NCBI GenBank assembly: GCA_016215115.1 | Contig: JACRLN010000016.1 | Location: 62,001-126,000, forward strand | Length of the DNA stretch: 64,000 nucleotides | From: Nitrospirota bacterium | GTDB lineage: Bacteria; Nitrospirota; Thermodesulfovibrionia; UBA6902 | Direction of reading: 5' to 3' | Shown: piece after piece, positions 7,123 to 61,467 of the stretch | Position numbering within the stretch: position 1 is the first letter of the stretch | How the letters are laid out: the number at the start of each line of letters is the position of its first letter | The notes under the pieces: model-generated | What the model was told of the DNA's origin: nothing | Database searches by the model: none | The model's input: the letters and a program-made list of their open reading frames with translations, nothing else | Made by a program: the position numbers and the translations under genes

Positions 7123-8013
7123 ATGAAGAATATTTACCACAAATTTACAGAACTGATAGGCAAAGCTTTAGAATATTTAGAAGGGGTGGCCCTTATCTTA
7201 ATAGTTGCTGTTGCGGTCCTTGGCATCATTGTTGGTTTTAAATACTACAGACATACTCAGGAAGACCCCCAATTCTGCATGTCATGCCACATAATGAAGG
7301 AGGCCTTTACAGAATGGTATAACGGCAAGCACAGGGATATAATCTGTCAGAAATGTCATCAATTAAGTATCCTTGAGCAGAACCAGCTTCTTGTGGCTTA
7401 TATTATGCAAGGGAAAAACAGACAATTTTCTCAAACCCATGGAAGGGAAAAACCATGGAATGCATGCAGGGGATGCCACGTGAATGAGGCCACACAAGGC
7501 TCAATAACCATGAAAAAAGCATACGGACATGCCAGGCATGTATTCATACAAAAAATAGATTGCAAGACATGTCATAAAGGGGCGCTGCATAAATTTGAGC
7601 CTAATGAGGCGGCATGTCAGAAATGTCATCGTGATAACGGTGTTCACGGACTTGGTATGGAGGCTTTTTCATGTCTCAAATGCCACTCCTACTCAGAAAA
7701 AACTCCTTCAATGGTTCCAAAAGATAGATGTATCAAGTGTCACACTAAAATTTCCAAAACAAGTCCAATGTCAGGACTGCTTTGTCACCAGTGTCACAAA
7801 CCACATGGAGAAATAATCCCGAAACCTTCTTCATGTGTCAGTGAATGTCATCAGAATGAAACTGCTGTAGGTCAACATGCACTACATCTTAAAAAAGGCC
7901 TGAACTGTCTTGACTGTCACAAGGCCCATACATGGGTTCTGGGGCAGGTTAATGCAAAGACTCTCTGCAGCCGCTGCCATCCTTATAAAGATCCCAAAAG
8001 ATTTATATACTAA
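7123..8013 (+). CDS. NapC-like membrane-anchored undecahaem cytochrome c
   Basis: A 296 aa protein with one N-terminal membrane helix (residues about 20-42, LILIVAVAVLGIIVGF) and the rest in the periplasm. It has ten CxxCH motifs (CMSCH, CQKCH, CRGCH, CKTCH, CQKCH, CLKCH, CIKCH, CHQCH, CLDCH, CSRCH) and one CxxxCH (CVSECH near residue 240). The start EDPQFCMSCHIMKEAFTEWYNGKHRDIICQKCH resembles NapC/NirT-type quinol-oxidising anchors, extended by about seven extra haems. It stands alone, divergent from the B12 operon. A degenerate ATGAGTAATTA repeat with inverted copies (7040-7100) lies just upstream. Quinol-to-periplasm electron transfer is the likely role; the terminal partner is unknown. 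Confidence 0.85.
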   Translation: MKNIYHKFTELIGKALEYLEGVALILIVAVAVLGIIVGFKYYRHTQEDPQFCMSCHIMKEAFTEWYNGKHRDIICQKCHQLSILEQNQLLVAYIMQGKNRQFSQTHGREKPWNACRGCHVNEATQGSITMKKAYGHARHVFIQKIDCKTCHKGALHKFEPNEAACQKCHRDNGVHGLGMEAFSCLKCHSYSEKTPSMVPKDRCIKCHTKISKTSPMSGLLCHQCHKPHGEIIPKPSSCVSECHQNETAVGQHALHLKKGLNCLDCHKAHTWVLGQVNAKTLCSRCHPYKDPKRFIY

Positions 8014-8188
8014 TGTAGTGCGTCCAATTCTTTACATATGTTTCGAGTGTCTTGAGCCGTCATTCCCGCAGTCCTTAAGCGGGAATCCAGAGTTTCCTGT
8101 TTTTTTACAGACACTGGATCCCCGATTACTACCTCGGGAATGACAATTTTCAAGAGCTTCAATGTAAAGGGATTTAAGACGCACTACA
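8014..8188. repeat. MITE-like element with 11 bp terminal inverted repeats
   Basis: TGTAGTGCGTC (8014-8024) and GACGCACTACA (8178-8188) are perfect inverted repeats, with a second inner match (CTTTACAT near 8030 and ATGTAAAG near 8162). CTAA occurs immediately outside both ends (8010-8013 and 8189-8192), compatible with a short target duplication. The core is the CGTCATTCCCG mosaic (8058-8145). The left end starts directly after the stop codon of the cytochrome gene. No transposase is encoded. The rest of the 8189-8351 gap holds a sigma54-like promoter and nothing else I can name. Confidence 0.7.
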
Positions 8189-8297
8189 CTAACCCTTTCT
8201 CCATTCCTTTTTGCAATCCTGCAAATTAAAAGTATTGTTTTTGCATTGCTGCAAACTTTCAATAAGCAAAGAACCTTAGAAATCAAGTAGTTTGTAA

Positions 8298-32999: not shown

Positions 33000-33170
33000 C
33001 CAAAAAGTGCAATTAGAAAATGCAGATGTTGCGAAGAAATATATTTTTCGATACCTTAACGTGATTTTAATTAATTAACCGGTGCATATTTTAATCCAAA
33101 GCCATAAGCATAATTTAATAAAAATTTATCGAGTTAAAGATATTTCTGAGTAATGTCTGCATTTTCCGCG
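33000..33170. repeat. Repeat element between arsR and acr3
   Basis: GAAAATGCAGA (33016-33026) and TCTGCATTTTC (33156-33166) form a perfect 11 bp inverted repeat around AT-rich text. TTAACCCAAAAAGTGCAATT just outside the left end resembles the outer ends of the CCACAGAG elements, so this may be a degenerate relative. It fills most of the arsR-acr3 gap. Confidence 0.5.
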
Positions 33171-43479: not shown

Positions 43480-43671
43480 TTTCATTAGTTTGATTGGTTT
43501 TATTAGTTGTATTGGTTAGATTGGTTAACAAAAAAACTAATAGAACCAATTAAAGCAATTGAACTAATACAAACGAAATTAATAATGTTACATTTGCTGT
43601 CATACCCGCGAAGGCGGGTATCCAGAAGTCCTTAAAAATACTGGATTCCCGTTTTCACGGGAATGACGACA
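43480..43671. repeat. Two repeats in the gap after the molybdoenzyme operon
   Basis: 43488-43580 is a low-complexity inverted repeat built of TTGATTGGTTTTATTAG-like units and their complements (CTAATAGAACCAATTAAAGC). 43599-43669 is a CGTCATTCCCG mosaic, here GTCATACCCGCGAAGGCGGG and CTGGATTCCCG...CGGGAATGACG. The first could form a long weak hairpin at the operon end. No gene is seen up to 43731. Confidence 0.7.
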
Positions 43672-43731
43672 CTAATTGTTAATGTCAATTTATTTAATGC
43701 GTTTGTATTAATAAAACCGGCTGAAGCAGAT

Positions 43732-47132: not shown

Positions 47133-47639
47133 ATGAAAACTAAACTGTTTATATTTACAATTGTTCTTTTTCCGATTATGGGCATTGCAGTCGCACAGCA
47201 ACAGAAAGCACAGCCTGCGCCGAACGGCATTATCATGCCGGAGGGTTATAAAGACTGGCGGTTGATTGCTTCGTCAGTCCGCTCAGACAACAATACTATG
47301 AGGGTCATACTGGGGAATGATATTGCAATCAACGCCGCAAGAAGCGGCAAAACTAATCCCTGGCCTGATGGAACTGTTTTCGCAAAGCTTGTATGGAAGA
47401 ATAAGACTCACGAGAAATGGCCGACCGCCACAATACCCGGGGACTTTGTACACGCGGAATTTATGATAAAGGACTCGAAAAAATATGCGTCAACCGGGGG
47501 ATGGGGTTTCGCACGCTGGCTGGGAATGGAGCAGAAGCCTTATGGCAAAGATGCAGAATTTGTGCAGGAATGTTTTGGATGTCATACGCCGATGAAGGAC
47601 AATGATTACGTATTTACGCATCCGGCGGTGCTGCCATAA
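47133..47639 (+). CDS. Cytochrome P460-family periplasmic protein
   Basis: I start it at ATG 47133 after ATAGGAGGTG; the longer frame has no other support. The 168 aa product has a signal peptide (LFIFTIVLFPIMGIAVAQ), the P460 domain pattern MPEGYKDWRLIASSVRSDNNTMRVILGNDIAINAA, WPDGTVFAKLVWK and GFARWLGMEQKPYGKD, and one haem c motif (CFGCH) near residue 148. Family members include hydroxylamine- and NO-oxidising haem enzymes, but many relatives are uncharacterised. It ends at a MITE-like element that overlaps its stop. Confidence 0.85.
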   Translation: MKTKLFIFTIVLFPIMGIAVAQQQKAQPAPNGIIMPEGYKDWRLIASSVRSDNNTMRVILGNDIAINAARSGKTNPWPDGTVFAKLVWKNKTHEKWPTATIPGDFVHAEFMIKDSKKYASTGGWGFARWLGMEQKPYGKDAEFVQECFGCHTPMKDNDYVFTHPAVLP

Positions 47640-47789
47640 TTAGTGTCTGTGTATAAATTGCAAGTTTTCAATTTCGTCATGCCCGAAGTCTGTAATCGGG
47701 CATCCAGAACTTATTAAAAAAACTGGATTCCCGCTCAAAGGACTGCGGGAATGAATCTTCAATATTTGAATTTATACACAGACACTAAT
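47639..47789. repeat. MITE-like element with perfect 21 bp terminal inverted repeats
   Basis: The ends 47639-47659 (starting ATTAGTGTCTGTGTATAAA) and 47769-47789 are exact reverse complements over 21 bp. The core is the mosaic CGTCATGCCCG...CGGGCATCCAG plus CTGGATTCCCG...GCGGGAATGA. The left end overlaps the stop codon of the P460 gene and the right end touches the stop codon of hflX on the other strand, so the element exactly fills a convergent gene junction. It may serve as a bidirectional transcription barrier. Confidence 0.85.
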
Positions 47790-49417
47790 CACAACGGCCA
47801 GAGCTTTGCCTCTATTGCATTGAGCAGTTTATGGAACGTCACAGGATGTTTGGCTGAAATAGAAAGGCCTTCAAACCTTCTGCATACATTCATAACTTCT
47901 TCCCTGTTTACCATATCTTCCTTGTTAAAGACCAGAAGCTGCTGTTTTTGAGAAACCTTCAGATCGCTGAGTATCTTCTCAACAGATTTAATATGCTGTT
48001 CAAACCGCGGGTTTGATATATCCACGACATGAAGCAGTAAATCTGCGTCTTCAAGTTCTTCAAGCGTTGTGCGGAACGCAGCAAAAAGATCTTTCGGGAG
48101 GTCGCGAATAAAACCGACGGTATCAGTAATTATCACATCTCTTTCTTTTGGGAATCTCAGTCTCCTGCTTGCGGTATCGAGTGTTGCAAACATCTTGTCT
48201 TCCACAAAGGTTACGCTTTTGGTGAGGTTGTTCAGCAAAGTCGATTTCCCCGCATTTGTATAGCCGATGATAGATATTATAGGAAGCCCCTGTTCAACCC
48301 TGCGCGCCTTTCTCTGTTGTCTTGCGCGGCTCAGGGATTCGAGCTGTTTTTCGAGCAGGGTTATCCTGTCCCTCACCCGTCTCCTGTCGACCTCAAGCTT
48401 CATTTCACCGGGGCCTCTTCCACCGATACCACCCATCAAACGGGACATCGCAGAGCCTTTGCCTGTGAGTCTCGGAAGCCGGTAACGCAGCTGCGCAAGC
48501 TCGACCTGGACTTTTCCGTCCCTGCTGTGCGCCCGGCGCGCGAATATATCAAGAATGAGCTGTGAACGGTCAATGACTTTCAATTCCGTCAAGTCACCGA
48601 GCGCTTTCATTTGGGAGGGATTCAGGTCCTGATCAAAAATAAGCAGGGTTGCGCCCTTGTTTAGTGCATTGATAACAAGCTCTTTTATTTTCCCTCCGCC
48701 CATAAGATATTTAGGATTAATCTGTTTCGGCCTTTGCATTACAGTATCAAGCACCACTACATCGCTTGAATAGGCGAGTTCTTTCAGTTCTTCCAGGGAT
48801 TCTTCCTGTTCAGACCTGGGCCCTGTTGAGACACTGACGAGGATAGACCGCTCCCGCTTGTCTTTTATATCAAAGCCTGTCCTGCGTGATTGCAGGTCAT
48901 TCTCGACCAAAGATATCACGCTGTCGAAATCTTCAAAGGAAGTATCGATCTTTTGAAATGGCACAGGGCCTTCAATTACGTGGGATACTCCTGATTCGGA
49001 CGGAGACAGGCGGGCAAGGGAAATATTATCAGGTTGGCTGTCTTTTAAACCAATGACGATAAGGGCGTCGAACCTCAAAAGTGAAAGGTCTGTAATGTCA
49101 TCCTGATTTATTGCCTCACTTTTGAGATGTGTATGGATCAATCTCAGTCCGCGGAGGACTTTTCTGCCGAGAGGGTAATTAGTAAGTTCAGGGATGAATA
49201 TCCCTTTGGCGTCTCCAATAATTACATGACTGATATCGCCATCTCTGTCGGCAAGCACGCCAATCTGCCTGCCGATTGCGCTTGAACACTCAGCCATGTA
49301 CCGCGCAAGTTCAGCAGTCAGCGGCCTGTCTTTCGGTATGCGCCTTCTGTATATTCTCTCAAGCGCCTTAAGCTCGCTTCCTTTTAAGCCGGAGATGTTG
49401 CCGTAAACAGTTGGAAT
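47789..49417 (-). CDS. hflX: GTPase HflX, with an apparent ATT start codon
   Basis: A ribosome-associated GTPase that splits stalled ribosomes. The first in-frame ATG is at 49297, but 40 conserved-looking codons precede it (PTVYGNISGLKGSELKALERIYRRRIPKDRPLTAELARY), which I recall as the usual HflX N-terminus. This stretch contains no ATG, GTG or TTG. AAAGGAGG stands just upstream of ATCATT, so ATT at 49417-49415 is the best start. Later motifs are the glycine-rich GGIGGRGPGEMKLE, the G1 GYTNAGKSTLLNNL, G3 DTVGFIRDLP and G4 NKED. Protein is 542 aa from ATT and 502 aa from the ATG. Confidence 0.9.
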   Translation of the reverse strand: MPTVYGNISGLKGSELKALERIYRRRIPKDRPLTAELARYMAECSSAIGRQIGVLADRDGDISHVIIGDAKGIFIPELTNYPLGRKVLRGLRLIHTHLKSEAINQDDITDLSLLRFDALIVIGLKDSQPDNISLARLSPSESGVSHVIEGPVPFQKIDTSFEDFDSVISLVENDLQSRRTGFDIKDKRERSILVSVSTGPRSEQEESLEELKELAYSSDVVVLDTVMQRPKQINPKYLMGGGKIKELVINALNKGATLLIFDQDLNPSQMKALGDLTELKVIDRSQLILDIFARRAHSRDGKVQVELAQLRYRLPRLTGKGSAMSRLMGGIGGRGPGEMKLEVDRRRVRDRITLLEKQLESLSRARQQRKARRVEQGLPIISIIGYTNAGKSTLLNNLTKSVTFVEDKMFATLDTASRRLRFPKERDVIITDTVGFIRDLPKDLFAAFRTTLEELEDADLLLHVVDISNPRFEQHIKSVEKILSDLKVSQKQQLLVFNKEDMVNREEVMNVCRRFEGLSISAKHPVTFHKLLNAIEAKLWPL

Positions 49418-60086: not shown

Positions 60087-61262
60087 TTGCGAAAAAAATT
60101 TTCCATAGACCTGTCCCACAGGGTGAAAGATCTTCCACCTTATCTTTTTGCGGCTATTGACAAGATGAAACAGGAAGCTGTCAGGAAAGGTGTGGACCTG
60201 ATAGATTTAAGTATCGGCGATCCGGATATACCGACACCAAAACACATTGTCCAAAAAATGAAAAAGGCTGTAGAGAATCCAGCGCATCACCGTTATCCAT
60301 CATATGAAGGGATGCTTTCTTTCAGACAGGCAGTAGCGGGCTGGTACAAAAAAAGATTCAATGTATCATTGGACGCAAAAACAGAAGTCCTTTCGCTCAT
60401 AGGCTCAAAAGAAGGCATCGGACATATTCCTCTTGCATTTATAAATCCTGGAGATGTTGTGCTCGTGCCTTCTCCCGGATATCCTGTTTATCCTGTCGCA
60501 ACGCTTTTTGCCGGCGGTAAAAGCCATATCATGCCTCTGCTTGATAAAAACAACTACCTTCCTGACCTTAAGGCGATCCCGAAGAGTGTTCTGAAAAAGG
60601 CAAAGCTCATGTTTATTAATTATCCCAACAACCCCACATCTGCTGTTGCAGGCGGAAACTTTTATAAAGAGGTAATCGGGTTTGCCGCTAAAAATAATAT
60701 TCTCGTATGTCATGATGCGGCCTATTCAGAAATTTATTATGACAACAAAAAGCCTTTGAGCTTTCTCCAGATACCGGGCGCTAAAGACGTGGGAATAGAA
60801 TTTCACTCACTCTCAAAAACATACAACATGACAGGCTGGAGGATTGGCTTTGCCGTTGGAAACGCAAACGCACTGTTCGGGCTCGGAAAGATCAAGACAA
60901 ATCTTGATTCCGGAGTGTTTCAGGCCATTCAGGAAGCATCTATTGAAGCGCTGAATACTGGAGAGGCAGTTCTAAAAAATATAAGAGATACCTATCAGGA
61001 AAGAAGAGATGTTTTATACAATGGATTGAAAGCTCTTGGCTTTGAGCTTCAAAAACCAGGGGCGACATTCTACCTCTGGACAAAAGTGCCGAAAGGTTTT
61101 ACATCATCCAGTTTTGTTACACACCTTCTTGAAAATGCAGGTGTACTCGGGACCCCGGGCAATGGCTTCGGCGCTCCCGGAGAAGGCTACATAAGATTCG
61201 CCCTCACTGTTTCAACAAAGAGAATGAAAGAGGCCGTGGAGAGGATAGGAAAGGTTATTTAG
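60087..61262 (+). CDS. dapL: LL-diaminopimelate aminotransferase DapL-type
   Basis: Starts at TTG 60087 behind CAGGAGGAG. The 391 aa class I aminotransferase has [87 protein letters not shown] and the PLP lysine in [20 protein letters not shown]. The LSIGDPD and GYP blocks fit the DapL branch used for lysine and peptidoglycan in several anaerobic phyla. Other aminotransferases of the family are the alternative. Confidence 0.88.
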
Positions 61263-61398
61263 TGTGTGTTTATAAACACACATATTGCGCCGTCATTCCC
61301 GCAGTCTGTTAAGCGGGAATCCAGTCTTTACAATAATTTCTGGATGCCCGATTACAGCCCCCCGATTACGACATTCGAGGGCAGGCTTCGGGCATGAC
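61259..61398. repeat. TAGTG-ended element overlapping the dapL stop codon
   Basis: The sequence from the stop onward, TTAGTGTGTGTTTATAAACA, matches the terminal repeat of the element at 47639 (TTAGTGT-TGT-TATAAA). GTGTGTTTATAAACACAC is itself a perfect palindrome. The mosaic core CGTCATTCCCG (61291) to GGGCATGAC (61398) follows. I see no right terminal repeat, so this copy may be truncated. Confidence 0.6.
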
Positions 61399-61467
61399 AA
61401 AAATAAGAAATGGCAATCGAGGATTAGAGTGAAGCTCCCTTGGATCCTTGAACCCCCGAACCCTTTT

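Follow-up and report, generated by a model that had tools for sequence, protein, structure and literature searches.

The 147-bp element that fills the junction between the cytochrome P460 and hflX genes of the window (the whole stretch of 64,000 nucleotides analysed here) is very probably a MITE with the ends of an ISNCY-family, ISDol1-group IS, moved in trans and brought onto stop codons by its target motif, TAANTA. The ends, the direct repeats, the conserved ancestral stop codon, an IS with matching ends and target, the enrichment at stop codons and the absence from coding DNA were all observed directly. We propose that an ISNCY/ISDol1 transposase would move the non-coding derivative in trans, would prefer a target that is short, near-palindromic and rich in A+T (TAANTA in this lineage, TAR-N(0-2)-YTA family-wide) and would leave that target on either side of the element as a direct repeat. 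Such a target reads as a stop codon, in many cases from either strand, so that an insertion at the stop of a gene should rebuild the stop at the edge of the element and leave the protein unaltered. Purifying selection would then act as the chief filter, with copies left near gene 3' ends. A simple motif of this kind explains why small elements appear to seek out stop codons.

Elements at stop codons in the window

The inverted repeats at 47639-47659 and 47769-47789 are 21 nt long, 100% complementary and enclose 109 bp; this short, non-coding copy has perfect ends of 17-21 bp (Table 1). The cytochrome P460 gene (47097-47639) stops with the TAA at 47637-47639, which is the first half of TAATTA, and hflX (47789-49297, minus strand; product at 438 bits against TIGR03156) stops with the TGA read as TCA at 47789-47791, the last half of TAATCA. 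An earlier note, made from the sequence of the window, had described this copy as sharing the A of TAA and as ending on the opposite-strand stop of hflX between convergent genes, and both descriptions are confirmed.

Table 1. Positions of the elements and their target copies in the window
Feature	Positions	Strand	Remarks
Type A MITE	47641-47787	+	147 bp, TAG...CTA; nonautonomous relative of ISNCY/ISDol1-group IS
Left target copy TAATTA, type A	47637-47642	+	Its TAA is the cytochrome P460 stop codon
Left terminal inverted repeat TAGTGTCTGTGTATAAA, type A	47641-47657	+	
Right terminal inverted repeat, type A	47771-47787	-	
Inner core, type A	47675-47754	+	Two CCCGA/CCCGC palindromes, GTCATGCCCG...CGGGCATCCAG and CTGGATTCCCGC...GCGGGAATGA
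Right target copy TAATCA, type A	47786-47791	+	Contains TCA, read on the opposite strand as hflX stop TGA
Type B MITE	8014-8188	+	175 bp, ends TGTAGTGCGTC; separate family
Left 4-bp target copy CTAA, type B	8010-8013	+	Contains stop TAA of multihaem cytochrome gene
Right 4-bp target copy CTAA, type B	8189-8192	+	
Decayed type A copy	61260-61410	+	Retains left end and core; right terminal repeat lost
Left target TATTTA of decayed copy	61256-61261	+	TA plus next G is the dapL stop TAG

The right target copy differs from TAATTA at a single base, a TAA-to-TGA change from stop to stop. As hflX of the relative G004 has TAA at the codon where hflX of the window has TGA, TAATCA looks like TAATTA after one such step. 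The TAA of the cytochrome gene lies at the same codon in the orthologues of four genomes (G001-G004), none of which has an element there, and the gap between the two genes without the element is 16 bp in G004 and 31 bp in G002, both relatives of the genus of the window. To judge from this one site, the original target was probably a pair of back-to-back convergent stops, TAA/TTA, and both genes most likely kept their own stops after insertion.

The opposite reading, in which elements inserted inside genes and ended the truncated reading frames with their own TAG, has in its favour that this TAG serves as the stop of a gene in 11 of 61 copies. However, six of these copies retain TAA or TAG in the reconstructed empty site, HflX, DapL and cytochrome P460 match their models through the C-terminus, and relatives that lack the element have the same cytochrome stop, and we consider stops supplied by the element very improbable.

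The two other elements of the earlier note also lie where it had placed them, the one beginning directly after the TAA at 8011-8013 of a multihaem cytochrome gene and the other sharing the TAG of dapL, the gene for LL-diaminopimelate aminotransferase. In the latter the end TAGTGTGTGTTTATAAA begins at 61260 and its first three bases are the stop codon (61260-61262); no right end matching this left end was found, and it is therefore a decayed copy. The treatment of all three as one kind does not hold: the elements at 47639 and 61260 form one family, whereas that at 8014 differs in ends, target and probably transposase. The 11-bp ends of this type B element, TGTAGTGCGTC and GACGCACTACA, are perfect at 8014-8024 and 8178-8188. 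It has nine copies with repeats of CTAA, ATAG, CTAT or GTAG/GTAA, and two of the nine are at stop codons. In the congener G007, three contig ends carry a type B end that is preceded by CTAG and leads into the start of a helix-turn-helix protein with a weak resemblance to an IS630 model (E 0.0023 over 64 aa). The type B element is probably a MITE of an IS630-type element with NTAR-like targets, and it meets stop codons because such targets contain TAA or TAG.

Type A copies, their target duplication and the autonomous IS

The host assembly (G000) is a 2.82-Mb draft in 57 contigs, of which the window is C41:62001-126000. With the 47639 sequence as query, this genome gave some 40 scored places, along with 304 first-look candidates. 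At most two mismatches being allowed, the end motif TAGWGTCTGTNNATAAA is present 175 times versus 31 times for a reversed-pattern control, so the count is not due to chance. Pairing of ends at the listed places left 61 plausible elements, most of 145-176 bp, with up to 96% identity to the query and grading into decayed ones; none lies within a gene as called by our own search for open reading frames. An exact-pattern search that required a spacing of 60-90 bp between the two ends gave no match because the copies have ~110 bp between their ends.

When the element is taken as G...C, identical 6-mers are present on both sides of 25 of the 61 copies (TAATTA in 13, TAAATA in 9, TATTTA in 2 and TAACTA in 1), and the other pairs differ mostly by one base. 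The family thus has a target-site duplication, with flanks that fit TAANTA/TANTTA and with Y favoured before the target and R after it. The repeat is direct rather than inverted, because TAAATA/TAAATA and TAACTA/TAACTA are not palindromic; as the element starts with TAG and ends with CTA, duplications of 2, 4 or 6 bp within TAANTA are indistinguishable. TA is present in the ends and flanks, and TA ends are frequent among bacterial MITEs (PMC2229807), as would be expected of an IS630- or Correia-like element with a TA duplication. A duplication of TA only would, however, require the ten-base target TAANTAANTA every time, and the IS with type A ends encodes a transposase of the ISNCY and not the IS630 type. 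The flanking 6-mers together with this IS rule out a TA-only duplication, and we give an IS630- or Correia-like origin of type A almost no credence.

A single scan of 84,980 genomes for the type A end with its target found at least 115 loci in Nitrospirota, Bacteroidota, Treponema, Neomarinimicrobiota, Cloacimonadota and others. Most are MITEs with unrelated interiors and the same ends and TAANTA repeats. One locus from Ignavibacteria (L135) is a complete IS of 2.0 kb that has type A ends, is flanked by TAATTA on each side and encodes a transposase of 443 aa, and a second homologue of this transposase is present in L144. A further IS of 1627 bp (L246), with the same ends, TAATTA repeats and a 57% identical transposase, was found in G035, a member of the window's own family. 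The three transposases score 379 (L135), 358 (L246) and 336 bits (L144) against the NCBIfam ISNCY model NF033593 (cut-off, 325), and those of L135 and L144 match Pfam DDE_Tnp_1. The congeners G008 and G007 (L248 and L255) have the left end of the IS and the start of the transposase, broken off at a contig end, as repeated IS copies would be expected to behave in short-read assemblies. The left end of the IS and the arm of the MITE share the 24-bp TAGTGTCTGTTTATAAACTCAAAC, which extends past the inverted repeat, and in some copies the differences between IS and MITE are confined to its variable NN positions.

The term 'MITE-like' in the earlier note was therefore apt: the family has direct repeats, is polymorphic in its presence and shares its ends with autonomous ISs (L135 and L246) that make the same duplication. 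The transposase with matching ends for which that note proposed a search exists in these other genomes; none was detected in the host assembly in searches that included DDE_Tnp_1, so that mobilisation in the host is something we infer. The 57-contig draft may have lost the IS. Single type A ends in the host (e.g., C9:88772) have ordinary genes or decayed MITEs as neighbours and no transposase, the single-contig relatives G022, G023 and G033 have too few copies to reveal an IS, and neither phage records nor solved structures gave a match to the transposase. Type A is, on this well-supported evidence, a MITE family of the ISNCY/ISDol1 group, a known kind of element; a widespread family that had no name is now linked to a transposase group and a target rule.

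Stop codons, gene ends and transcription

Type A elements touch a gene end in 21 of 61 copies and in two registers only. In 10 of these copies the target supplies TAA as the stop, and in the other 11 the stop is made up of its TA and the R that follows. Empty sites were rebuilt in silico from the 36 copies with near-perfect repeats, with stops made by the element excluded. A stop codon was hit by 14 of these 36 sites versus 34 of the 322 TAANTA sites that lie in non-coding parts of the same DNA (p = 4e-5), or versus 16 of 104 non-coding sites under a stricter null with flanks of Y...R (p = 0.005). The null is sensitive to the flank preference, rising from 11% up to 13-15%, and the enrichment is modest. 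Genes are strongly avoided: coding DNA contains 61% of motif sites but none of the 36 rebuilt sites (p = 5e-15). Among copies from other taxa, 15 of 57 non-coding copies are on stops versus 66 of 661 motif sites (p = 8e-4). The 'stop-codon targeting' of the earlier note stands to the extent that TAANTA contains stops and that seating is 2-4 times that of motif sites; most of the clean copies (22 of 36) lie elsewhere in intergenic DNA.

Recognition of gene ends by the transposase or a host partner, for example through termination complexes or open convergent ends, would add a preference for stops or 3' ends beyond the 6-bp motif. Copies do favour gene 3' ends, with 41 of 90 intergenic copies within 30 bp of one versus 204 of 983 motif sites (odds ratio 3.2, p = 6e-7, pooled), and among sites near 3' ends the stop register is favoured when the sets are pooled (odds ratio 2.5, p = 0.016), although not significantly in either set alone. 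However, the same 3' bias is to be expected if insertions into promoters and coding DNA are removed by purifying selection, and the Y/R flank preference lifts the null as noted above; we regard active recognition as unlikely. The motif and purifying selection largely account for the seating on stop codons, with a small residue, and the habit is mostly a property of the target motif. If the residual preference holds without selection, the transposase group would represent a compact, protein-only, low-damage bacterial insertion system.

The earlier note had also suggested selection as transcription barriers, i.e., that copies are retained as barriers or terminators between genes. The hairpin folds are very stable (-63 kcal/mol, z -9.4) and one copy lies exactly between convergent genes, but the strong fold of the 47639 element is one that any long inverted repeat must adopt, and a terminator scan of that copy alone found no terminator-like hairpin with a T run. 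Nor do the copies favour convergent junctions: the genes around them are convergent in 10, divergent in 11 and codirectional in 36 cases, and 6 of 33 placeable clean copies are at convergent junctions versus 47 of 260 motif sites, with no visible surplus. Across 20 aligned copies, the hairpin pairing is broken in 65 cells versus 16 changed on both sides, and position 4/149 varies independently between copies. Terminal pairing is thus not maintained between copies, and selection on an RNA or cruciform structure was rejected. A barrier role is not supported and is very improbable.

The target rule across the ISDol1 group, known systems and the inner core

Plasmid-borne relatives with transposases about 35% identical are annotated as the rhizobial ISRm17, ISRtr6 and ISMlo5, and ISRm17 has been placed in the ISDol1 group of ISNCY (PMC10194956). 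Among 15 IS loci fetched, 6 have 7-bp direct repeats, TAGTCTA or TAGACTA, and 6 (L290, L296, L298-L300 and L303) read TAGC/TAGT...ACTA/GCTA, i.e., a 6-bp TAGCTA repeat, in a register assigned by eye. A Skermanella copy (L301) has TAGTACTA on both sides, and of the remaining loci one has unequal flanks and one yielded no ends. The non-rhizobial complete IS copies inspected were few (L135, L246 and L301). The named members thus have their type of end and of target in common with the family of the window: they match the same NCBIfam model, are 1.6-1.7 kb long and have TAGTG..TCCATAAAC ends and TAR-N-YTA repeats, like its IS. Their target is TAG-N-CTA, whereas that of the window element, a 147-bp non-coding derivative, is TAANTA. 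As read from these flanks, the shared rule is TAR followed by up to two bases and then YTA, a stop codon from either strand. This rule is the interesting part of the analysis, and in the open literature searched on stop-codon targeting and on TAATTA targets no description of a stop-codon target was found. A tentative extension is that the group settled on this both-strand target as a safe harbour encoded by the motif, which may have helped its MITEs to spread through Nitrospirota, Bacteroidota, spirochaetes and other phyla; coding frames would seldom carry TAR-N-YTA in frame, and an insertion would rebuild the stop of a gene hit at its end.

RUP/IS630-Spn1, Correia and MITEAba12 are likewise short, non-coding and mostly intergenic, with inverted ends shared with an IS and with direct repeats. 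RUP and Correia have TA targets and MITEAba12 has 9-bp repeats (PMC2229807, PMC6382973, PMC10969869); in type A, unlike these, the target is itself a stop codon. The IS1202 family, also placed under ISNCY and targeting dif, has a TnsB-like transposase, TGT ends and duplications that are 3-5 bp or long (PMC10132070). Membership of type A in that family was rejected, as it has a DDE_Tnp_1 transposase, TAG ends and 6-bp direct repeats instead. Tn7 inserts at attTn7 after glmS by means of a protein that recognises one gene. Both Tn7 and type A are harmless at a gene 3' end; for type A a short motif suffices for most of the effect. Neisseria dRS3-type repeats have the form ATTCCC...GGGAAT, and the inner core of type A contains a palindrome of the same type, ATTCCCGC...GCGGGAAT; this is a resemblance only, and here the palindrome lies inside transposon ends.

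The inner core, GTCATTCCCGC...GCGGGAATCCAG with its partner, is a separate module; type B contains it too, as do other repeats that lack type A ends. It occurs on unrelated types of end (type A, type B, CATAGCGTCATAAATAATTGCGC.., and TAGTTAGAGTCTG.. paired with CTTATCCACACAATTTCCGGAAG) at about 300 first-look places in the host genome (e.g., L042, L052, L053, L055 and L060), as if a single palindromic repeat had been captured by several transposons. A third MITE-like kind in the window (43565-43710), with ends of about TACAAACG...CGTTTGTA, has the same core and likewise lies at a convergent junction; its roughly nine genomic copies are 97-99% identical, and it has apparently been active very recently. 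At L133:2197-2501, the core of a type A element is expanded into a series of tandem CCGGAACTTGTTGAAAAGAATAGATTCCGGCTTAAGGACTGCCGGAATGACAG units. At L237:6611-7051 (Bacterium BMS3Bbin05) and L162:5-339 (Anaerophaga), type A MITEs stand in rows of two or three, in which neighbours share a 6-bp target copy, later copies having inserted into the earlier duplication. The window also has a 31-nt inverted repeat (81%) enclosing 89 nt at 33016-33166.
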